NCBI RefSeq assembly: GCF_017094465.1
Contig: NZ_CP064791.1
Location: 992,001 to 1,056,000, forward strand
Direction: 5' to 3'
Length of the DNA stretch: 64,000 bases
Origin: Halapricum desulfuricans
Lineage (GTDB): Archaea > Halobacteriota > Halobacteria > Halobacteriales > Haloarculaceae
In this document: piece after piece, positions 38,070-48,139 of the stretch
Position numbering within the stretch: the first letter of the stretch is position 1
Layout: the number at the start of each line of letters is the position of its first letter
Notes under the pieces: generated by a model
Database searches by the model: none
What the model was told of the DNA's origin: nothing
What the model saw: only the letters and a program-made list of their open reading frames with translations
Position numbers and translations under genes: made by a program

Positions 38070-38354
38070 ATGTGTCTAGGTATACCGGGTCAGATCACGG
38101 AGATCGACGGCGCAGAAGCCACCGCGGAGTTCTGGGACGTCGAGAAGACAGTGCGGATAGACATCGTCGACGAGGACGTCGAGGTGGGGGATTACATCCT
38201 CAACCACGCGGGATTCGCGATCCGGAAGATCCCCGAAGACGAGGTGGAGGAGACCATGGAAATCTACGAGTCGTTCCTCGAGGGCGACGAGGACGAAGCG
38301 CTGGAGGAGATCGGCGGCGAGCCGGACGAGCAGTTGGGAATCGGTGGTGATTAG
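38070..38354 (+). CDS. hypC: Hydrogenase maturation chaperone HypC
   Basis: Small OB-fold chaperone of 94 residues that, with HypD, carries the Fe(CN)2CO unit to the large subunit of NiFe hydrogenase. The essential N-terminal Cys is at position 2 (MCLGIPGQITEIDG); the starting frame upstream is ignored because this Cys must follow the initiator Met. The acidic C-terminal helix after KIPEDEVEETM is longer than in E. coli HypC, as usual for halophiles. Its TAG stop is followed immediately by the hypD ATG. It is the first gene of hypCDEAB. Confidence 0.95.
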   Translation: MCLGIPGQITEIDGAEATAEFWDVEKTVRIDIVDEDVEVGDYILNHAGFAIRKIPEDEVEETMEIYESFLEGDEDEALEEIGGEPDEQLGIGGD

Positions 38355-39467
38355 ATGGCCGTCGATACGGGCGACCAGGACCTGCAGTTCCGGGATCCCG
38401 AGAAGGCCGAGCAGTTGACCGACAAACTGGAGTCGCTGATGGACGACATCGGCGAACCGGTGACGATCATGCACGTCTGCGGGAGCCACGAGCAGGCCAT
38501 CGCCAAGTACGGCCTGCGAAGCCTCCTACCGGACGGGCTCACCATCCGGATGGGACCGGGCTGTCCGGTCTGCGTGACCGACATGCCCGAGGTCGACGAG
38601 GCCGTCACGCTCGCCGAGGACGGCAAGATCGTCGCGACCTACGGGGATATGCTCCGTGTGCCCGGCACCGAGCAGAGCCTCGACGACGCCAAGGCAGACG
38701 GGGCGGACGTTCGCGTCGTCTACTCGGCCAGCGAGGCCGCCGAGATCGCCGAAGAGGAGGACAGAGAGGTCGTCTTCTTCGCGACGGGCTTCGAGACGAC
38801 CGCGGCCCCGACCGCGGCGGTACTGGTCGACGACCCGCCCGAGAACTTCTCGGTGCTGTCGGCCCACAAGTACGTCCCGCCGGCGATGGAGATCGTCGCG
38901 GAACTGCCGGACACGGACGTCGACGGGTTCCTGGCGGCGGGCCACGCCGCGACGATCACCGGCTACGGGCTGTTCGAGGAGTTCGTCGAGGAGTACGAGA
39001 CGCCGGCCGTCGTCGGCGGGTTCGAGCCGATCGACATCCTGTTCGGGCTGGCGCGTCTGCTGGAGTTCATCCGCGACGACGAGCCGGGACTGGCGAACGC
39101 CTACCAGCGGTGTGTCACCGAGGAGGGCAACGTCCCGGCGAAGGAGTTGATGTGGGACGTCTTCGAGACGACCACCGGCGAGTGGCGCGGGATCGCCGAG
39201 GTCCCCGACGCGGATCTGATCCTCAGCGAGGAGTACAGCGAATACGACGCCCGCGAGCGCTTCGAGATCGAGCCGGACGTCGGTGGGGCGGATCCGCTGA
39301 CCGAGGACTGCATCTGCGGGGACATCATGGCTGGCACAGCCGATCCCGACGAGTGTCCCCTGTTCGGCGAGGAGTGCACACCCCAGAACCCGGTCGGGGC
39401 GTGTATGGTCTCAAGCGAGGGGCCCTGCAAGATCTGGCTCGAATACGGCGGCCAACCGGACATCTAA
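38355..39467 (+). CDS. hypD: Hydrogenase maturation scaffold HypD
   Basis: Iron-sulfur scaffold on which Fe(CN)2CO is assembled together with HypC. It has 370 residues. The key motifs are HVCGSHEQAIAKYG with the conserved Cys and His, RMGPGCPVCVTDMPEVD, and FATGFETTAAPTA. The C-terminal [4Fe-4S] ligands lie among CICGDIMAG, CPLFGEECTPQNPVGACMVS and GPCKIW. All cysteines expected for function are present. It starts directly after hypC and 3 nt before hypE. Confidence 0.97.
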   Translation: MAVDTGDQDLQFRDPEKAEQLTDKLESLMDDIGEPVTIMHVCGSHEQAIAKYGLRSLLPDGLTIRMGPGCPVCVTDMPEVDEAVTLAEDGKIVATYGDMLRVPGTEQSLDDAKADGADVRVVYSASEAAEIAEEEDREVVFFATGFETTAAPTAAVLVDDPPENFSVLSAHKYVPPAMEIVAELPDTDVDGFLAAGHAATITGYGLFEEFVEEYETPAVVGGFEPIDILFGLARLLEFIRDDEPGLANAYQRCVTEEGNVPAKELMWDVFETTTGEWRGIAEVPDADLILSEEYSEYDARERFEIEPDVGGADPLTEDCICGDIMAGTADPDECPLFGEECTPQNPVGACMVSSEGPCKIWLEYGGQPDI

Positions 39468-39470
39468 ATC

Positions 39471-40505
39471 ATGAGCGACACAGACGAGGAAGTCATCACC
39501 GAAGCCCACGGCGCTGGTGGTGGGCAGATGCGCGAACTGATCGAGGAACTGGCTGTCTCACGGTTCGAGGACGGGGCCGCTGACGTCCCGCTGGCAGCGC
39601 TGGACGACGGGTCGGTCCAGCGGCTGGCGAACGGCGGCGGCTCGCTGGTCGTGACGACCGACAGCCACGTCGTCAAGCCGCAGTTCTTCCGCGGGGGCGA
39701 CATCGGTCGGCTGGCCGTCTCCGGGACAGTCAACGATCTGGCGATGATGGGTGCGACGGAACCGATCGCGCTGACCTGCTCGCTGATCGTCGAGGCCGGG
39801 ACGCCGGTCGAGACCGTCGAGCGAGTCATGGAGTCGATGGGCGAGACCAGCGAGGAGGCAGGCGCGCCGATCACGACTGGCGACACGAAGGTGATGGGCA
39901 GCGGCGACATCGACACGATCGCGATCAACACGACCGGCGTCGGAGTCGTCCCGCAGGGCAGTCACGTGCCGGACGCCGGCCTCTCGACGGGCGACAAACT
40001 GATCGTGACCGGCACGATCGGCGACCACGGCATCTCGCTGCTCTCCGAGCGCGAGGGCTTCGACTTCGAAGGCGATCTGGAGAGCGACGTCGCGCCCGTC
40101 AACGACCTCGTGGCGACCGCCATGGATGCAGGCGAGGTGACGGCGATGAAAGATCCCACGCGCGGAGGGCTGGCAACCTCGCTCAACGAGATGGCCAGCA
40201 AGGCCGAGGTCGGTATCGAGATCGACGAGACGGCGATCCCGATCTCGGGCGCGGTCGCCTCAGCGGGCGAGGTGCTGGGGATCGAGCCGCTGAACGTCGC
40301 CAACGAGGGGAAAGTCGTCATGGGTGTCGAGAGCGACGACGCCGACGCGGTGCTGGCGGCCATCCAGGCTCACCCGCAGGGCGAAGACGCCGCCATCGTC
40401 GGCGAAGTCGTCGCGGATCACGCCGGCCGAGTTATCCTCGACACCGGCTTCGGGAACCGGTATCTGAGCGAACCCGAGGGCGAACAACTCCCGCGGATCT
40501 GTTGA
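39471..40505 (+). CDS. hypE: Hydrogenase maturation dehydratase HypE
   Basis: PurM-like ATPase that dehydrates the carbamoyl group loaded on its C-terminal Cys by HypF, giving thiocyanate, the source of the cyanide ligands. It has 344 residues. The N-terminal EAHGAGGGQMRELIEELA, the central MKDPTRGGLATSLNEMA and the ligand site GDTKVMGSG are visible. The protein ends in PRIC, the universally required terminal Cys. It is homologous in fold to PurM at 14.5 kb. A single base separates its stop from the hypA start. Confidence 0.97.
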   Translation: MSDTDEEVITEAHGAGGGQMRELIEELAVSRFEDGAADVPLAALDDGSVQRLANGGGSLVVTTDSHVVKPQFFRGGDIGRLAVSGTVNDLAMMGATEPIALTCSLIVEAGTPVETVERVMESMGETSEEAGAPITTGDTKVMGSGDIDTIAINTTGVGVVPQGSHVPDAGLSTGDKLIVTGTIGDHGISLLSEREGFDFEGDLESDVAPVNDLVATAMDAGEVTAMKDPTRGGLATSLNEMASKAEVGIEIDETAIPISGAVASAGEVLGIEPLNVANEGKVVMGVESDDADAVLAAIQAHPQGEDAAIVGEVVADHAGRVILDTGFGNRYLSEPEGEQLPRIC

Positions 40506-40506
40506 C

Positions 40507-40908
40507 ATGCACGAGTTCTCCATCGCCTCGCAAATACTCGATACCGCCCGCGAACACGCGGCGGAAAACGACGCCGTTCGCGTGACCCACCTCGAGATCG
40601 AAGTCGGGGAGGCCAGCCACGTCAATCCGGATCAACTGGAGACGTGTATGGACGCGGCCAAGACCGACACGATCGCTGCGGACGCGACGGTCGTTGTCGA
40701 GACGGCCACACCGCACGCCGAGTGTGCGTGCGGGTGGAGCGGCGAGCCCGACGTCGCGGAGAACGCGCTGGTGTACGCGCCGGATCTGACCTGTCCCGAG
40801 TGTGGCGAGCGGATCGAACTCGCCGGCGGCGACAGCTGCCGGCTGATGAGTCTGACCGTCTCCGACGAGGAACCGACTGCGGACAGTACACCCACTGAGA
40901 CAGCATGA
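40507..40908 (+). CDS. hypA: Hydrogenase nickel metallochaperone HypA
   Basis: Inserts nickel into NiFe hydrogenase together with HypB. It has 133 residues. The nickel site is the N-terminal MHEFSIA with His2. The zinc ribbon has CACGWSG and CPECGERIELAGGDSC. An acidic tail follows. The stop overlaps the hypB start by ATGA (40905-40908), so the two nickel proteins are translationally coupled. Confidence 0.96.
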   Translation: MHEFSIASQILDTAREHAAENDAVRVTHLEIEVGEASHVNPDQLETCMDAAKTDTIAADATVVVETATPHAECACGWSGEPDVAENALVYAPDLTCPECGERIELAGGDSCRLMSLTVSDEEPTADSTPTETA

Positions 40909-41792
40909 CGTACTATATCCACGGCAATCCACTACAGGACGGAATCGAGCGTGTCGTCGACAGACTGGTCGGGTCCGGTCCGAGCGTGCCGATCGGGCCG
41001 CTGCGGGCCCATCGGTTCGGACACGACGACCACGACCACGACGGCGACGACGCCGAGGCGGACATCCTCGCACAGTTCGCCGAGCAGGCTGAGGACCTCC
41101 ACGAGCGGGTCGTCCACGAGCACGGACTGTTCGTCGCGGAATTCCTCGGTGCGACTGGTGCGGGCAAGACTCGCCTGATCGAGCGTCTGATCGAACGGGC
41201 ACCCGAAGACGAGACGATCGGCGTCATCGTCGGCGACGTGGCCGGCGAGGACGATGCGACTCGCTTCCGCGAGCGCGGGGCACAGGTCGCAAACGTCAAC
41301 ACTGGTAAGGAGTGCCATCTCGATCCGGAGTTCGTCGAACGCGGGCTCTCGGAACTGAACCTCGAGGCGCTCGATACGCTGTACATCGAGAACGTCGGCA
41401 ATATGGTCTGTCCGGCGGACTTCCCGCTGGGCGCGCAGGCCCGCGTGCTGGTTGTCTCGACGACGGAAGGGGACGACGTCGTGCGCAAGCATCCACTGCT
41501 CTTCCAGGCCTGTGACGCGACAGTGATCAACAAGACCGACATCGCCGATGCGGTCGGCTCGGACCTGGATCTGATGGAATCGGATGTCGGCGATATCGCC
41601 CCCGAGATGCCGGTGTTCCGGACCGACGCCGAACACGGCGACGGCGTCAGTGACCTGCTCGCATTCCTAGACGAGCGTGGGCACGCACACGCTCACGATC
41701 ACGACACCTACGTCTCGAAGACGGGCAGTCAGGAACACGCCAGTGACGGCGGTCACGCTCACGAGCACGGAGAGCACACCACTCACGATTGA
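40905..41792 (+). CDS. hypB: Hydrogenase nickel-incorporation GTPase HypB
   Basis: GTPase that delivers nickel with HypA. It has 295 residues. An N-terminal His/Asp-rich stretch (GHDDHDHDGDD) and a C-terminal His-rich tail (HAHAHDHD and GGHAHEHGEHTTHD) should bind and store nickel; most HypB proteins have such a region only at the N-terminus. The G domain has the P-loop GATGAGKTRLIERL, the metal/switch region NTGKECHLDP, ENVGNMVCPADFPLG and NKTD. It overlaps hypA. A long gap then precedes the convergent regulator gene. Confidence 0.96.
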   Translation: MTYYIHGNPLQDGIERVVDRLVGSGPSVPIGPLRAHRFGHDDHDHDGDDAEADILAQFAEQAEDLHERVVHEHGLFVAEFLGATGAGKTRLIERLIERAPEDETIGVIVGDVAGEDDATRFRERGAQVANVNTGKECHLDPEFVERGLSELNLEALDTLYIENVGNMVCPADFPLGAQARVLVVSTTEGDDVVRKHPLLFQACDATVINKTDIADAVGSDLDLMESDVGDIAPEMPVFRTDAEHGDGVSDLLAFLDERGHAHAHDHDTYVSKTGSQEHASDGGHAHEHGEHTTHD

Positions 41793-41896: not shown

Positions 41897-42631
41897 TCAA
41901 TCCGCCAGTTGCTCGGTCCGGCGGGATCTGTCGACGTCAAGCGGGTTCGTCGTGGACGTTGCGGTAACGAGTCGCAGGAACTGTCCGGTGTTCGTGAGGA
42001 TCTTGTTCTCCGCTTTCCGGAGGTGTTCCTCGTAAGTCGATCGGGCGACGGACGTCCGCTTGGCCAACTCGCGCAGGGACGTCTTCCGGGGTTGCTCGTA
42101 GTACCCGCTTTCCAGTGCGAGCCGAAGCGCTGCCATCTGTCGCTCGGTTACGTCCTCGAACAGCTGATCGACCGGGGCCAGCATACTGTGGGGGATCTGC
42201 TGTGTCGTCATCGCGGTCTTCGAGAGGACTTCGACGTCCCGATCGGCTTCCAGATCCTGCAGGAGCGCCTGGAGATCGCGCTCGTCGAACCCGATCGCCG
42301 TGTAGTGTTCCCAACCCTGGCGATGGACCGTCGGCGGCTGGTACAGACAGTTGTACTCCTCGAAGCGCTCGACGATGGAGTCTTCCAGCGAACAGAGACA
42401 GGCCTGGGTGACGACGTGCAGGCCGGACTCGTCGACCGATTCGTGGAGCACCGTCCCAAGGCTGTCGATCCGATCGAGCAACTCCTCGGCCGGCGCGTGC
42501 GGCGACGTGAGTTCGATCACCTGGCAGTCGTTCAGGTACCACTCACGGATCGTAAGGTCAGGGAATTCCTCCGAGAGTTCTCGATACGGACATTCGTGTC
42601 TGACCCGGAACGACGCCTCGTACAGGCTCAT
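41897..42631 (-). CDS. HTH_10-type (bacterio-opsin activator-like) transcriptional regulator
   Basis: A 244-residue regulator of the large haloarchaeal Bat/DmsR-like family. The N-terminal 170 residues form a sensor-like domain with several Cys (for example RHECPYREL and QACLCSLEDS) that could sense redox or metals. The C-terminal HTH_10 is TERQMAALRLALESGYYEQP, followed by TSLRELAKRTSVARSTYEEHL. It is divergent from the rhodanese/metallo-beta-lactamase gene (88-bp gap) and is the obvious candidate for its control. A perfect palindrome ATATAGCTATAT covers its own start codon, which fits autoregulation. The start is the ATG at 42631. Confidence 0.88.
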   Translation of the reverse strand: MSLYEASFRVRHECPYRELSEEFPDLTIREWYLNDCQVIELTSPHAPAEELLDRIDSLGTVLHESVDESGLHVVTQACLCSLEDSIVERFEEYNCLYQPPTVHRQGWEHYTAIGFDERDLQALLQDLEADRDVEVLSKTAMTTQQIPHSMLAPVDQLFEDVTERQMAALRLALESGYYEQPRKTSLRELAKRTSVARSTYEEHLRKAENKILTNTGQFLRLVTATSTTNPLDVDRSRRTEQLAD

Positions 42632-42641
42632 ATAGCTATAT
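42630..42641. promoter_or_regulatory. Palindrome at the regulator start, candidate operator
   Basis: ATATAGCTATAT, a perfect 12-bp palindrome, overlaps the ATG of the HTH_10 regulator, near the expected leaderless transcription start. A second inverted repeat, TGCCGG/CCGGCA at 42663-42668 and 42675-42680, lies nearer the divergent gene. Confidence 0.45.
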
Positions 42642-42719
42642 TCGAGTGGGCAGAATTAATGGTGCCGGTCATAGCCGGCAGCATACATATCCATATTCTG
42701 CTCATACGGGTACACACCG

Positions 42720-43832
42720 ATGTCGGAGATACGTCCCGAAGCACTCAGTGAACGCCTACAGACCGACGCGGACGACCTCCTCGTGGTCGATGTCCGCCAC
42801 GAGGAAAACTACGACGACTGGCATATCCCCGGTAGCGTCAACGTGGACGTGTACGACGAACTGACCGAGGATCCCGACGGGGCCAGAGACGCGTTCGCCG
42901 ACCTCCCCGACCACACAGAGATCGTAACAGTTTGCGCTGCGGGCGTCGTGGCAGAGACTGCGACCGATGTTTTCCTGGAGATGGGGCGCGACGCGAAGAC
43001 GCTCGCGGACGGCATGAACGGCTGGAGCCGGGTTCACCGGCACGCCCCGGTTCCGGTCGACCTCGATGGCACGCTCGTGCAGGTGGCACGACCGGGGAAA
43101 GGATGCCTCTCGCACGTCCTCGTCTCGGACGGCGAAGCCGCCGTCTTCGATCCGTCGCACTATCTCGGAGAGTACGAGGCGATCCTCACCGACCACGACG
43201 CCGACCTCGTCGGCGTCTTCGACACGCACGCCCACGCCGATCACGTCTCGGGCGCCGCCGACCTCGCCGACCGTCACGGCGTCCCCTATTATCTCCACCC
43301 CGAGGACGCAATCGCGATCGACGCGACACCCATCCAAGACGAACAGACCGTGACGGTTGGGCAGGTGGGCGTCGAAGTCGTCCACACGCCGGGCCATAGC
43401 GAGGGCAGCGTCTCGTTCGATCTCGACGGGCAGGCGCTACTCACCGGTGACACGCTCTTCCACGACAGCGTCGGCCGCGTCGAACTGGGTGTCGAAGCCG
43501 GCATCGAGGAATCCGACGTCGAGGAAAACGCCGCGACGCTCTACGAGAGCCTCCGGCGGTTGCTGGATCGCTCGTCCGATGCGCTGGTGTTGCCGGCACA
43601 CGATCCCGGATCGCCCGAGCCGCCGGTGACCGCGACCCTCACCGAGGTCAGAGAACGGAACGCGGATCTCGATCGCGACCGCGAAGCGTTCGTCCGCGAT
43701 CTCGCTACGGACATTCCCGATCATCCCCCGAACTTCGAGCGCGTCAAACGGACGAACGTGGGCCGGGAGTCCGTGCCGGCCGAGGACCTGGCCGAACTGG
43801 AGCTGGGGCCGAACAACTGCGCAGCGGAGTGA
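42720..43832 (+). CDS. Rhodanese/metallo-beta-lactamase fusion (persulfide dioxygenase-like)
   Basis: A 370-residue fusion: a rhodanese domain (about 1-105; active Cys near 72 in VTVCAAGVVAETA) followed by a metallo-beta-lactamase domain (about 115-320) with THAHADHVSGAADL, VHTPGHSEGSVSF and LLTGDTLFHDSVGR. The MBL part resembles ETHE1-type persulfide dioxygenases, which oxidise glutathione or coenzyme A persulfide to sulfite. Such fusions (CstB-like) remove excess sulfane sulfur. The last ~50 residues are an extra acidic helical tail. It is divergent from an HTH regulator and 4 nt upstream of an MFS gene that probably exports a product. Confidence 0.88.
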   Translation: MSEIRPEALSERLQTDADDLLVVDVRHEENYDDWHIPGSVNVDVYDELTEDPDGARDAFADLPDHTEIVTVCAAGVVAETATDVFLEMGRDAKTLADGMNGWSRVHRHAPVPVDLDGTLVQVARPGKGCLSHVLVSDGEAAVFDPSHYLGEYEAILTDHDADLVGVFDTHAHADHVSGAADLADRHGVPYYLHPEDAIAIDATPIQDEQTVTVGQVGVEVVHTPGHSEGSVSFDLDGQALLTGDTLFHDSVGRVELGVEAGIEESDVEENAATLYESLRRLLDRSSDALVLPAHDPGSPEPPVTATLTEVRERNADLDRDREAFVRDLATDIPDHPPNFERVKRTNVGRESVPAEDLAELELGPNNCAAE

Positions 43833-43836
43833 CCCT

Positions 43837-45129
43837 ATGAGCATGACAACCGAACTCAAACAGGGAATCCGCGAGCACAAGGGGCAGTTTTCGCTGCACG
43901 TGCTGTTGGTGTTCGCCACCGGCCTGACTATCGGATCCGAGCGCGCCGTCGTACCGGTGCTGGGACGGGACGTTCTCGGCGTCGAGTCGCTGTTCGTCAT
44001 CGGCTCGTTTGTCGTCTCGTTCGGCTTCGTGAAGGCGCTCCTGAACCTCTATGCCGGCAAGTGGGGCGGCGAGTACGGCCGGAAGCCGGTGCTCGTTCTC
44101 GGCTGGGCGACCGCGCTCCCGCTCCCGATCATCCTCATTTTCGCACCGAGTTGGGGATGGATCTCGATCGGAAACGTCCTGTTGGGCATCAACCAGGCGC
44201 TGACCTGGAGCATGGCGATCAACGCGAAGATCGACCTCGCGGGCCCCGACCAGCGCGGACTCGCAGTCGGCATCGACGAGGCCTTCGGATACGCCGGCGT
44301 CGCCGCCGGTGCCTGGATCACTGGTCTCATCGCCGGCCAGTTCAGCCTCCGGCCCGAACCCTTCTACTTCCTCGCCGTCGTGGTCCTGCTGGCGTTTCTC
44401 ATCTCCATCTTCCTGATCGAGGAGACGGTCCAGTACGCGCGGGCGGAGATCGACGACGAGAGTCACCACGACGCGAACCTCCCGTTCGTCGAGGTGCTGC
44501 AGCGCGCGACGTACGGCGACCGGACGCTGTTCGCCGCGGCACAGGCAGGCCACATCGAGAAGTTCGTCGACACGCTGTTTTGGCTCGCCGTCCCGCTGTA
44601 CCTCACGAGCGAAGGGGTCGCCATCGGGGCCGTCGGACTCGTCGTCGGTATCCACAGCGCGATGTATTTCCTCCAGATCGCGACCGGCGGGCTCGCCGAT
44701 CGGATCGGGCGCCGACCGCCCGTCATCGCCGGGATGTTCCTCGCGGGCGGCGGCGTCCTCGGTATGGTGCTGGTTGAGGGCTACTTCATGTGGGCTATCC
44801 TCTCGGCGGCCTCGGGCCTCGGGATGGCGTTGCTCTACCCGAATCTGATGACGGTCCCGAGCGACGCTGCCCATCCGACGTGGCGTGCGACCGGGATGGG
44901 CGTCTACCGGATGTGGCGCGATTCGGGATACGGCGTCGGTGCGATCCTTATCGGTCTGTCGATGGAGTTCGTGACCGTCGAAGCAGCCTTCTACATGACT
45001 GCGATCCTGATGTTCCTCTCCGGGGCGGTCGTGTACGTCTGGATGGAGGAGACCCACCCGGACTTCGGGACGCACGAACCGCCGGCGCCCGCGACTGGCT
45101 CGGCGCCGGGCACTGCCTCTGGCGACTGA
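43837..45129 (+). CDS. MFS transporter
   Basis: A 430-residue major facilitator protein with about twelve membrane segments. The first helix starts near LHVLLVFATGLTIG, and the loop motif after helix 2 reads KWGGEYGRKPV, close to the MFS signature. A second such loop after helix 8 is GGLADRIGRRPPV. The substrate is unknown. Because the gene starts 4 nt after a rhodanese/MBL gene, sulfite, sulfur or thiosulfate export is a reasonable guess, not more. An Asp/Pro-rich tail (APATGSAPG) closes the protein. Confidence 0.88.
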   Translation: MSMTTELKQGIREHKGQFSLHVLLVFATGLTIGSERAVVPVLGRDVLGVESLFVIGSFVVSFGFVKALLNLYAGKWGGEYGRKPVLVLGWATALPLPIILIFAPSWGWISIGNVLLGINQALTWSMAINAKIDLAGPDQRGLAVGIDEAFGYAGVAAGAWITGLIAGQFSLRPEPFYFLAVVVLLAFLISIFLIEETVQYARAEIDDESHHDANLPFVEVLQRATYGDRTLFAAAQAGHIEKFVDTLFWLAVPLYLTSEGVAIGAVGLVVGIHSAMYFLQIATGGLADRIGRRPPVIAGMFLAGGGVLGMVLVEGYFMWAILSAASGLGMALLYPNLMTVPSDAAHPTWRATGMGVYRMWRDSGYGVGAILIGLSMEFVTVEAAFYMTAILMFLSGAVVYVWMEETHPDFGTHEPPAPATGSAPGTASGD

Positions 45130-45197
45130 TGGAGGCACTCTGTGTAGCGGATTTCGGGTCAGCAATTTCATAGGGCCAGCCCCCGGTAGTAGAAGTG

Positions 45198-47507
45198 ATG
45201 CACGACGAGCAGGGCGCGGCAGTGACCGTCACCGGCGTCGTCCAGGGCGTCGGATTCCGGCCGTTCGTCTACCGGACGGCTGTCGACAACGACCTGGGCG
45301 GCTGGGTCAAAAACACCGGCGACGCCGGCGTCGAGATCCGCCTGGAAGGCCGGCGAGCAGCGATCGACTCGTTCCTGGAGACGCTTCGAACCGACCCGCC
45401 GCCGCTGTCCCGCGTCGAGAGCGTCGACGTGGCCTGGACCGACCCCGAAGGCGAGCAGTCCTTCGGGATCGTCCCTTCGAGCGATGCCGACGGCGGATCG
45501 GGGACGATCCCGCCGGACACCGCGATGTGTGACGCCTGCCTGGCGGATATGCGTGACCCCGACTCCCGATATCACGGCTACTGGGCGACCTCGTGTGTGG
45601 ACTGCGGAGCTCGCTATACTGTCATTCGATCGCTCCCATACGACCGACCGACGACGTCGATGGACGAATTCCCCATGTGTGCGGACTGCCGGGCGGAATA
45701 CGAGGATCCCGCCGACCGGCGCTATCACGCCCAGACGATCGCCTGCCCGGAGTGTGGCCCGTCGCTTCGACTCCTCGATAGCGAGGGGCAAACGCTGAGC
45801 GAGGGCGACGAGACGGCGATCGAGGCGGCCTGCGAGCGGATCGCCGACGGCGACCTCGTGGCGATCAAGGGGATCGGTGGCGCGCATTTGGCGTGTGACG
45901 CGACCGACCCGGAGGTCGTCGCGGACCTGCGCGAGCGCACCGGTCGGCCGGAGAAACCCTTCGCCGTCATGGCACCGGATGTCGAATCGGTCGAGTCGTT
46001 CGCCAGCGTTTCGACGACCGAACGCGAGACGCTCGAAGACACGCGTCGGCCGATCGCATTGCTTGAGGCGGACGGCGACCAGCCGTGGCTCGCGGTGGTC
46101 TCGCCCGGTCTGCACACTGTCGGCGTGATGTTACCGTACGCAGGACTTCATCACCTGTTGTTCGATCACCTGATGGGGCCGCTGGTGATGACCAGTGCGA
46201 ACCTACCCGGCGTCCCGATGGCGACGACGACCGAGGACATCCTGTCCGATCTCGACGGCGTCGTCGACGCGGCGCTGGTCCACGATCGCGAGATCGTCCA
46301 GCGGTGCGACGACAGCGTCGTCCGGGTCGTCGACGGCCAGCGGCAGTTCATCAGGCGCTCTAGAGGGTGGGTGCCACAGTCGATCCCGCGGTGGCCCGCC
46401 CCCAGCGATACCGGCGGTGCAGACGCTCTACCGGACGTACTCGCGCTCGGAGCTGAGTTCGACGCAACGGTGGCGCTCACCCAGGGTGGGGATGTCTTTC
46501 CCTCGCAGTACATCGGGGACGTAGACAGTCCCGCGACCGTGGACTATCTCACTGACACGGTCGCTCACCTTCGGGATCTGCTGGGGATCGAACCGGGAGT
46601 CGTCGTCTGCGATCTCCATCCGAACTTCCTGACGACCGAGCAGGCCCACGAGTACGCGGACGGCGGGATGGACGGGCCGGTGGCGGTCCAGCACCACCAC
46701 GCACACGCCGCCTCGCTGCTCGCCGAACACAGGCAGGAACGGGCGGTCGTGATCGCTGCTGATGGCACCGGCTACGGCCCCGACGGGACGATCTGGGGCG
46801 GGGAAGTGCTGGACGTGACGCCCGGCGACTACGAGCGCGTCGGCGGTCTGGCCCCGTTTCGATTGCCCGGTGGTGACGCGGCCATCGAGTCGCCGACCCG
46901 GATCCTGGCGAGCCTGCTCGCCGACGACGAGCGGATCGACGACCTCCTCCTCGATCGGGGCGTCGTCGAGCGACCCAGCGACGCCGTGACGATCCGCCAG
47001 CAAGCCGAGCGGGGCGTCAACAGTCCTGTCACGACCAGTACTGGGCGCGCACTCGACGCCGCGAGCGCTCTGCTGGGCGTCTGCTCGGAGCGCAACTACG
47101 AGGGTGAGCCGGCGATGAAGCTGGAAGCCGCGGCCGCCGACGGGGATCCGCTCGATATCGCAGTGCCGCGGACGACGACCGAGGGGCGTCCGACGGTCGA
47201 CGTGGCAACGCTCGTTCGGCGTCTCGACGATCGCCAGTCAGACCACCCGACTGCGGACCTCGCAGCCACGGCACAGGACGGGCTGGCGCGTGGGCTGGCC
47301 GGGATCGCGGTCGAGACGGCAACCGACCGCGGTGTCGACGCGGTCGGATTCACTGGCGGCGTTGCGTACAACGATGCGATTACTCGGACGATACGCGAGC
47401 GAGTAACGGACGCGGGACTGGACCTTCTGCGCCACAATCGACTGCCGCCGGGCGACGGGGGGATTGCGGTCGGGCAGGTCAGCGTTGCGACGGCCCGCCG
47501 CCGGTAG
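45198..47507 (+). CDS. hypF: Carbamoyltransferase HypF
   Basis: Forms carbamoyl-adenylate from carbamoyl phosphate and ATP and transfers the carbamoyl group to the HypE C-terminal Cys. It has 769 residues from the ATG at 45198 (a GTG three bases earlier is also possible). Domain order: acylphosphatase (1-90, with VVQGVGFRPFVYR); zinc-finger pair (CDACLADM, CVDCGARY, CADCRAEY and CPECG); YrdC-like domain (about 195-380); and a Kae1-like domain with QHHHAHAASLLAEH. It lies 3.4 kb downstream of hypB, separated by the regulator and sulfur genes, but in the same direction as hypCDEAB. Confidence 0.97.
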   Translation: MHDEQGAAVTVTGVVQGVGFRPFVYRTAVDNDLGGWVKNTGDAGVEIRLEGRRAAIDSFLETLRTDPPPLSRVESVDVAWTDPEGEQSFGIVPSSDADGGSGTIPPDTAMCDACLADMRDPDSRYHGYWATSCVDCGARYTVIRSLPYDRPTTSMDEFPMCADCRAEYEDPADRRYHAQTIACPECGPSLRLLDSEGQTLSEGDETAIEAACERIADGDLVAIKGIGGAHLACDATDPEVVADLRERTGRPEKPFAVMAPDVESVESFASVSTTERETLEDTRRPIALLEADGDQPWLAVVSPGLHTVGVMLPYAGLHHLLFDHLMGPLVMTSANLPGVPMATTTEDILSDLDGVVDAALVHDREIVQRCDDSVVRVVDGQRQFIRRSRGWVPQSIPRWPAPSDTGGADALPDVLALGAEFDATVALTQGGDVFPSQYIGDVDSPATVDYLTDTVAHLRDLLGIEPGVVVCDLHPNFLTTEQAHEYADGGMDGPVAVQHHHAHAASLLAEHRQERAVVIAADGTGYGPDGTIWGGEVLDVTPGDYERVGGLAPFRLPGGDAAIESPTRILASLLADDERIDDLLLDRGVVERPSDAVTIRQQAERGVNSPVTTSTGRALDAASALLGVCSERNYEGEPAMKLEAAAADGDPLDIAVPRTTTEGRPTVDVATLVRRLDDRQSDHPTADLAATAQDGLARGLAGIAVETATDRGVDAVGFTGGVAYNDAITRTIRERVTDAGLDLLRHNRLPPGDGGIAVGQVSVATARRR

Positions 47508-47531
47508 TGTTTTCAGATTTGCTAATTGGAT

Positions 47532-47553
47532 ACCACCTTTTATATTCGGTGGT
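47532..47553 (+). promoter_or_regulatory. TATA box framed by an inverted repeat upstream of the pilin gene
   Basis: ACCACC at 47532-47537 and GGTGGT at 47548-47553 enclose TTTTATATT (47538-47546). The inverted repeat could be a repressor site that blocks TATA recognition. The predicted start near 47570 leaves a leader of about 85-90 nt. As an alternative, the hairpin could end the hypF transcript. Confidence 0.5.
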
Positions 47554-47656
47554 CGCTATAATCCGACAGAGCACGCGAAAGAAAGGCACGACGGCAACGG
47601 AATCGGCCCACCTGCTGGGTGTTCCGTGCCATCACGTCCCGCGTGAACTTGAAACC

Positions 47657-48139
47657 ATGAAACTGAAACAACTCTTCACAGACGACGACGCAGTCAGTCC
47701 GGTCATCGGCGTGATCCTGATGGTCGCGATTACCGTGATCCTCGCGGCCGTCATCGCGACGTTCGTGCTCGGACTCGGTGAGTCGGTCAGTAGTACCGCC
47801 CCGCAGGCACAGTTCCAGGAGGATTACAGTCCGACGGACACAAACGAAACAGATGACTTCGGGGAAACCGCAACCAATGCTAGTGACACGGGCATCCTGA
47901 CTGTCTCCCATTCCGGTGGGGATTCGATTTCGGCAAACAACCTCTATATGGTTGGTAGCAGTGAGGGCAACCACACAGACGAACGCAAAGCTTGGTCTGA
48001 TGCTGGTGTCGGAGATAAAGTCAGCGCTGGCACGTCGATCGACTATGCCGTCAGTGACAGTGACACTGTCCGCGTCATCTGGAACAATGGCGAGGGCAAC
48101 TCCGCCGAGCTGAGCAAGTGGCCCGGCGCAAATAACTAA
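47657..48139 (+). CDS. Type IV pilin (archaeal, class III signal)
   Basis: A 160-residue secreted pilin subunit. The prepilin segment is MKLKQLFTDDDAVSPVIGVI, with the conserved cleavage region just before the hydrophobic stretch VILMVAITVILAAVIATFVLGL, which also serves as the filament core. The mature part is acidic, with Asn-X-Ser/Thr sites (for example NETDD) for N-glycosylation. The family (haloarchaeal PilA-like, DUF1628-related) makes adhesion or conjugation-like pili. No PilB or PilC gene is adjacent, so it is a stand-alone pilin gene dependent on other loci. Confidence 0.9.
   Translation: MKLKQLFTDDDAVSPVIGVILMVAITVILAAVIATFVLGLGESVSSTAPQAQFQEDYSPTDTNETDDFGETATNASDTGILTVSHSGGDSISANNLYMVGSSEGNHTDERKAWSDAGVGDKVSAGTSIDYAVSDSDTVRVIWNNGEGNSAELSKWPGANN

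Follow-up and report, generated by a model that had tools for sequence, protein, structure and literature searches.

The window analysed here, a stretch of 64,000 nucleotides (positions 992001–1056000 of contig C1, NZ_CP064791.1) from the 2.88-Mb genome of Halapricum desulfuricans, contains three genes between hypB and hypF that are hereafter referred to as the cassette: a regulator gene (REG), a gene encoding a fusion of a rhodanese and a metallo-beta-lactamase domain (RHOMBL) and a transporter gene of the major facilitator superfamily (MFS). On balance, we favour the explanation that they form a REG-controlled cassette for sulfane-sulfur oxidation and export that was acquired horizontally and landed between hypB and hypF, its position among the hyp genes being incidental. 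An earlier note on this DNA had taken the gene order to suggest coordination of H2 metabolism with sulfane-sulfur detoxification, a coupling that synteny, co-occurrence and the location of the operator described below do not support. The order of the three genes recurs across haloarchaea, so the arrangement of the cassette itself is not due to chance.

Gene order and distribution of the cassette

REG (41897–42631, minus strand) is transcribed divergently from RHOMBL (42720–43832, plus strand) and MFS (43837–45129, plus strand), the latter starting 4 nt past the RHOMBL stop codon. Pfam domains identified were HVO_A0563_N, which is sensor-like, and HTH_10 in REG, Rhodanese and Lactamase_B in RHOMBL, and MFS_1 (PF07690) in the transporter. 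The neighbour on the left is hypB (40905–41792, plus strand; TIGR00073 above cut-off) and that on the right is hypF (45195–47507, plus strand, with an ATG at 45198; TIGR00143 above cut-off), whose ATG lies 68 nt past the MFS stop on the same strand. The location and order of the three genes, as well as the 4-nt gap, had been given in the earlier note and proved exact, with the families confirmed by Pfam and NCBIfam.

The cassette was examined in 58 named haloarchaeal loci (L132–L189, two of them from one plasmid) with flanks of up to ~10 kb. It was complete in 56; L163 was without REG, and no MFS gene was present in L176, a contig of 4.9 kb. No hyp genes were found near any of the 58, and all of 20 further loci, which were best-scoring matches partly overlapping the named ones, had the three genes and no hyp genes. 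Queries with hydrogenase subunits matched none of 63 cassette loci. Conversely, the cassette was found in none of 39 hyp loci from other genomes within the stretches fetched, mostly ~20 kb each; of the 40 other hyp genomes, 39 are represented in this way. G299, where no close RHOMBL orthologue was seen, was left out. Among 391 genomes of the class, hypD was present in 41 and RHOMBL, counted at 60% identity or more with fragments included, in at least 85. As lower-bound counts, these comprised 6 of the 41 hypD-positive and 79 of the 350 hypD-negative genomes (odds ratio 0.59, Fisher p = 0.32). Five genomes besides that of the window contain hypD as well as RHOMBL; in them the cassette lies apart from the hyp genes, ~41 kb from hypD in G280 and farther away or on another contig in the rest. 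The module is thus essentially one that is common without hyp genes and is not repeatedly found beside these or hydrogenase genes, largely the situation in which the earlier note would call the link accidental; among the genomes sampled, only that of the window has it among hyp genes, which corrects an over-reading of the gene neighbourhood. The cassette probably sits there by chance, and the neighbourhood does not show that H2 and sulfur metabolism are coupled.

The opposing explanation, that selection placed the cassette at this site because it allows joint regulation of hydrogenase maturation and sulfane-sulfur detoxification, is very unlikely given the absence of the cassette from all 39 other hyp loci, the lack of association across genomes, the absence of the operator from hyp and hydrogenase genes, and an element upstream of hypF that is also retained where hypF is far from hypB. 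In its favour, hypF follows MFS on the same strand at a distance of 68 nt, a bacterial-type search found no terminator-like site in the MFS–hypF gap, and the hyp genes have clients, since the genome encodes four [NiFe]-hydrogenase large subunits, one of them nearest to sulfhydrogenase models. The best NCBIfam models for these were NiFe(Se) for two, Vhu-like for one and sulfhydrogenase-like for one, all four scoring below cut-off. A further point for it is that the sister genome G257 has a YeeE-YeeE/TusA/DsrE cluster (L074:3621–5752) upstream of hypC, at a distance of ~3.8 kb; the same queries detected no such cluster in the window. The sulfhydrogenase-like and Vhu-like large subunits are encoded at L131:8261–9583 and L130:8762–10180, the Vhu-like gene beside a NuoG/HoxU-like gene.

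The remaining genes of the hypC-D-E-A-B run that hypB completes are hypC (38070–38354), hypD (38355–39467), hypE (39471–40505) and hypA (40507–40908). All Hyp proteins were confirmed by Pfam and NCBIfam, HypA scoring above the Pfam and below the NCBIfam cut-off.

Probable insertion between hypB and hypF

In the sister genome G257, the distance from the hypB stop to the hypF ATG is 78 bp and no cassette is present, while both flanks are shared with the window (pduO, a response regulator gene and hypC-B on the left; hypF, a pilin-like gene and purF on the right). No RHOMBL orthologue was found in any of the other five genomes available for the genus, one of which (G391) is 78% complete; the best matches there were paralogues of ~40% identity. 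A RHOMBL tree of the window and 55 loci (L170, L176 and L189 left out) mixes haloarchaeal families; the window falls within a group of 13 rows, supported at 97/86, whose other members belong to Haloferacaceae, Natrialbaceae, Natronomonadaceae and Haladaptataceae. Taken together, the mixed tree and the absence from the rest of the genus favour horizontal acquisition. The tree does not show transfer from outside the family, because the Natronomonas row L141 in the window's set probably corresponds to G251, listed in the window's own family. The MFS protein is 81–89% identical across most orthologous cassettes and 60–66% in the most distant ones; at 89% identity, that of Halobellus rarus matches the closeness of hypD among members of the genus (87–89%). 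A self-contained, horizontally spread REG-RHOMBL-MFS cassette would accordingly have been inserted between hypB and hypF in the window's lineage. Loss of the cassette by the sister species from an ancestral hypB-cassette-hypF order is highly improbable: the parsimony argument on the direction of change had six genomes of the genus to draw on, which leaves some room for it, and it has against it that neither the other five of these genomes nor any of the 39 hyp loci elsewhere has the cassette.

An element, GGTCAGCAATTTCATAGGG (45157–45175, plus strand), between MFS and hypF is likely to be the hypF promoter region. Counting from GTCAGC, 14 of 18 letters of GTCAGCAATTTCATAGGG, just upstream of hypF, are the same in the sister genome G069, and G272 is alike. 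In these genomes hypF lies ~170 kb (G069) and ~310 kb (G272) from hypD; since the upstream element is alike where hypF is not beside hypB, hypF has probably kept its own promoter.

A gene of the phage-integrase family was observed downstream of hypB in G069 (L077:13556–14584), and the 3' side of hypB may have taken up foreign DNA more than once. In two genomes of a neighbouring genus, other MFS genes, not matched by the MFS of the window at 1e-8, lie between hypB and hypF (L079:4610–7071 and L075:13073–14218). Judged from these gene orders, the junction may be loose, or MFS genes may recur there. The pilin-like open reading frame 3' of hypF (47507–48139), so named from its hydrophobic N-terminus and not from a family search, has tandem relatives in G257 (L074:15706–16968).

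The regulator and a putative palindromic operator

Alignment of the REG-RHOMBL intergenic region from the window and 57 loci (58 rows, L163 left out) revealed one highly conserved 18-bp palindrome, TGCCGGTYATRNCCGGCA, represented in the window by TGCCGGTCATAGCCGGCA (42663–42680, no strand). The mean majority frequency was 0.93 across its 18 columns compared with 0.61 across the 66 other intergenic columns. At no more than two mismatches it was present in 57 of the 58 named loci, 36–40 nt upstream of the RHOMBL ATG, and the only locus lacking it, L163, is also the only one without REG. Within 1.15 Mb of cassette loci just two other sites occurred, both directly before REG (L175:9678–9695 and L177:9511–9528), in loci where the REG-RHOMBL spacer is longer; this second copy suggests autoregulation by REG. 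A further 25 loci, partly from the same species as the named ones, had one palindrome each, between REG and RHOMBL. It was not found within 400 bases at three mismatches in six more distant relatives lacking REG. The window holds a single site at up to three mismatches, and the whole genome one exact copy and five at two mismatches (backward control pattern: one per strand), with none at hyp genes or hydrogenase loci at two mismatches. The palindrome is new in this analysis, which establishes its conservation and its linkage to REG.

The predicted operator is flanked by putative TATA-like elements for both genes. That of REG (ATTAAT, 42655–42660, minus strand) lies ~24–29 nt before the REG ATG, with columns conserved at 0.74–0.97, and that of RHOMBL (CATATC, 42686–42691, plus strand) directly 3' of the operator, with the TAT columns conserved at 0.91–0.95. 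The interpretation that best fits this layout is that the palindrome is the binding site of REG, from which it controls the two divergent promoters, and hence itself and RHOMBL-MFS.

As proposed in the earlier note, REG is a divergently oriented HTH_10 regulator with several cysteines in its sensor part: HTH_10 (PF04967) scored 72.4 bits against a cut-off of 23.1, and the N-terminal part contains five Cys residues. Among these, C14, C36, C78 and C80, though not C95, were invariant in 16 of 16 orthologues, and a distant relative (32% identity) retained only C36 and C78. These conserved N-terminal cysteines could be the means by which REG switches state. The predicted model of REG was of low confidence (pLDDT 65.6, pTM 0.51), Foldseek gave weak matches only and a single match (E 0.41) came from PDB sequences searched with a profile; the model is too weak to judge clustering or placement of the cysteines, and no fold is claimed.

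NarO, a haloarchaeal HTH_10 regulator, has a Cys-rich motif in its N-terminal part and an operator with a CGAA/TTCG-type repeat. REG might instead be an oxygen or redox sensor like NarO and DmsR, with a cassette that answers to O2 and not to sulfane sulfur, which we regard as possible and on the doubtful side. It would agree with the shared HTH_10 class, as deduced from descriptions, with the designation of NarO as an oxygen sensor in excerpts of PMC11218638, and with the four invariant cysteines, which could hold a metal or cluster. It is opposed by the tie of the operator to the cassette only, at one site per locus except in L175 and L177, and the low pLDDT of the REG model gives the cysteine argument little to build on. 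If REG does sense sulfane sulfur, it would be a type of archaeal reactive-sulfur sensor not met among the titles and abstract starts listed by the literature searches. A bolder proposal appears highly improbable: that REG is the founding member of an archaeal family of such sensors (HTH_10/HVO_A0563_N, with four Cys reading persulfides and a dedicated palindrome) and, at the same time, that read-through from RHOMBL-MFS into hypF makes hydrogenase maturation responsive to sulfane sulfur.

The fusion protein and its relation to known systems

RHOMBL consists of a single, N-terminal rhodanese domain (residues 7–103), a metallo-beta-lactamase domain (128–294) and a C-terminal motif of the LELGPNNCA type. 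In an alignment of 25 proteins including that of the window, of which 14 belong to the cassette type and 11 are more distant relatives, Cys72 of the rhodanese was invariant and PF00581 scored above cut-off, so that the catalytic Cys is in place. Likewise invariant in all 25 were H170, H172, D174, H175, H226, D244, H294 and Arg253. The segment T169-H-A-H-A-D-H-V-S177 (THAHADHVS), in which T169, A173 and S177 are also invariant, matches the persulfide dioxygenase motif T-H-hydrophobic-H-A-D-H-hydrophobic-T/S given in excerpts of PMC6060420. The positions of a 2-His-1-carboxylate iron site are occupied by H170, H226 and D244, and R253, at D244+9, aligns with the Arg of 4ysb and corresponds to the Arg (R139/R163) of persulfide dioxygenases described there.

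A profile search was led by 3tp9 (2.9e-55), 3r2u, 4ysb, PRF and ETHE1 (1e-29), ahead of BLEG-1 (1.9e-27). The predicted model of RHOMBL was confident (pLDDT 91.4, pTM 0.90), and with VIA-align 2 the 12 top rows, comprising 3tp9, 3r2u, ETHE1 proteins, PRF, enzymes from Beggiatoa, P. putida and P. aeruginosa and the hypothetical protein 4efz, had Z values of 26.0–30.5, followed by glyoxalase II at 21.1 or less. Foldseek ranked the same persulfide dioxygenase group first, with P. aeruginosa 9g8t tying with S. aureus GloB. Key residues and predicted fold thus strengthen the resemblance of the metallo-beta-lactamase half to persulfide dioxygenases that the earlier note had suggested, and we propose with moderate confidence that RHOMBL works like such an enzyme. 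It would accept sulfane sulfur on Cys72 of the rhodanese and/or as the persulfide of a low-molecular-weight thiol, and a mononuclear iron in the metallo-beta-lactamase domain would serve for its oxidation to sulfite. The MFS protein, for which phmmer detected no PDB relative at E 0.001, might then carry the resulting sulfite or thiosulfate, or some related sulfur species, out of the cell. Cys367, within the C-terminal motif (43797–43829 of the window), was also invariant in all 25 proteins and is possibly a second persulfide carrier; the motif is retained in relatives from Armatimonadota, Verrucomicrobia and Chloroflexi.

A sulfur context is apparent in other haloarchaea. In Halobacterium salinarum NRC-1, plasmid pNRC100 carries the same three genes in the same order (VNG_RS12465–12475; REG 71% and RHOMBL 78% identical to the window), flanked by trxA (thioredoxin), TauE, two YeeE genes, a second metallo-beta-lactamase protein, TusA, DsrE and cyd; strain R1 is alike. 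In Halorussus limi, the cassette is near genes for TauE, a thioredoxin-domain protein and another metallo-beta-lactamase protein, and no sulfur neighbours were seen among the 12 features shown for pHME132 of Haloferax mediterranei. Relatives of TauE, YeeE, TusA or DsrE were located near 11 of the 58 cassette loci and 1 of the 39 hyp loci (p = 0.024), the latter being the G257 cluster. Together with these sulfur neighbours, the key residues, profile and fold of RHOMBL and the invariant REG cysteines, the pNRC100 island supports the view of a sulfur-handling module with a Cys-bearing regulator. No papers on the cassette itself were seen among those listed by the literature searches. Two papers on sulfur-respiring haloarchaea (PMC6176080, PMC5437934) contain rhodanese and hydrogenase terms, and the main text of a paper on H. 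mediterranei denitrification had no mention of its locus-tag stems (two guessed), of a rhodanese or of a metallo-beta-lactamase fold.

Several observations weigh against this account. As regards context, 47 of the 58 cassette loci have no TauE, YeeE, TusA or DsrE gene within ~10 kb, and the enrichment is supporting and not independent evidence because the queries came from the neighbourhood of the cassette and 2 of the 11 loci share a plasmid. As regards the insertion, genomes of the same family outside the genus carry the cassette, so that it may have moved over a short or a long distance; no clear target-site duplication was found, only 6-bp repeats; and the flanks aligned weakly with the empty site, their scores being equalled in 8 and 18 of 500 shuffles, so that exact breakpoints are not claimed. 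As regards the enzyme, the acidic partner two residues past Arg253 is Glu255 and not the Asp described for persulfide dioxygenases, and the Tyr (Y173/Y197) that binds glutathione (GSH), described as common to all three types (excerpts of PMC6060420), is replaced by Pro296, two residues past H294 and opposite the 4ysb Tyr in the alignment, on which strict membership fails. In the profile search, 4ysk and 9g8t, which are Type II enzymes, came below BLEG-1 (7ev5), 7l0b and 2xf4, and S. aureus GloB likewise stood ahead of them. The families were not separated when the metallo-beta-lactamase domain by itself was used in a single-sequence search, which placed BLEG-1 first and the GloB-type 7l0b and 2xf4 above ETHE1. 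The best NCBIfam model for RHOMBL was GloB, below cut-off, and the Blh model (NF040641) reached 38.4 of the 625 bits of its cut-off. Haloarchaea use gamma-glutamylcysteine in place of GSH, which would fit the missing Tyr.

The missing Tyr, the GloB model as best NCBIfam match below cut-off and the single-sequence ranking speak for the alternative that RHOMBL is a hydrolase or pure sulfurtransferase with a thioesterase- or glyoxalase II-like domain, in which the metal-ligand positions, all present, could form a dinuclear site. We consider this rather unlikely in view of the profile E values of 2.9e-55 to 2.6e-29 for 3tp9, 3r2u, PRF, ETHE1 and their kin compared with 8.9e-25 for S. aureus and 3.1e-20 for E. 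coli GloB, the lower Z values of glyoxalase II and the invariant Arg253. Profile and fold likewise disfavour the view that the domain is closest to glyoxalase II, though the single-sequence search did not tell the two apart. The explanation by a horizontally acquired sulfane-sulfur cassette is carried by the fold result and the absence from the rest of the genus. What merits following is the conserved cassette with its operator, a testable and widespread haloarchaeal unit of a persulfide-dioxygenase-like fusion with an N-terminal rhodanese and of a regulator to which an 18-bp site is linked, present in the culturable hosts Halobacterium salinarum and Haloferax mediterranei.

In comparison with known systems, the best whole-protein match by sequence, profile and fold is to the CstB-type fusions 3tp9 of Alicyclobacillus and 3r2u of S. 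aureus, which we take to be CstB and in which a rhodanese is also fused; the C-terminal LELGPNNCA motif is extra in RHOMBL. The domain order is different, since excerpts of PMC6060420 place the metallo-beta-lactamase domain first and the rhodanese at the C-terminus in these Type III enzymes, whereas the single rhodanese of RHOMBL is N-terminal, and the third His of the motif, Phe or Tyr in Type III, is present in RHOMBL. Burkholderia PRF (5ve3–5ve5) and ETHE1 (4chl) share with RHOMBL the fold (Z 28.8–29.9), the iron-ligand positions and Arg253, but differ in domain order and in having the GSH-binding Tyr in place of Pro296. The pNRC100 island differs from the window in its setting, the cassette lying amid sulfur genes there and amid hyp genes here. 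For REG, the nearest described regulators by class, compared by description, are NarO and DmsR, with which it has in common the bacterioopsin-activator class without PAS or GAF domains (excerpts of PMC11218638), while its putative target is a sulfur cassette with the operator TGCCGGTYATRNCCGGCA.

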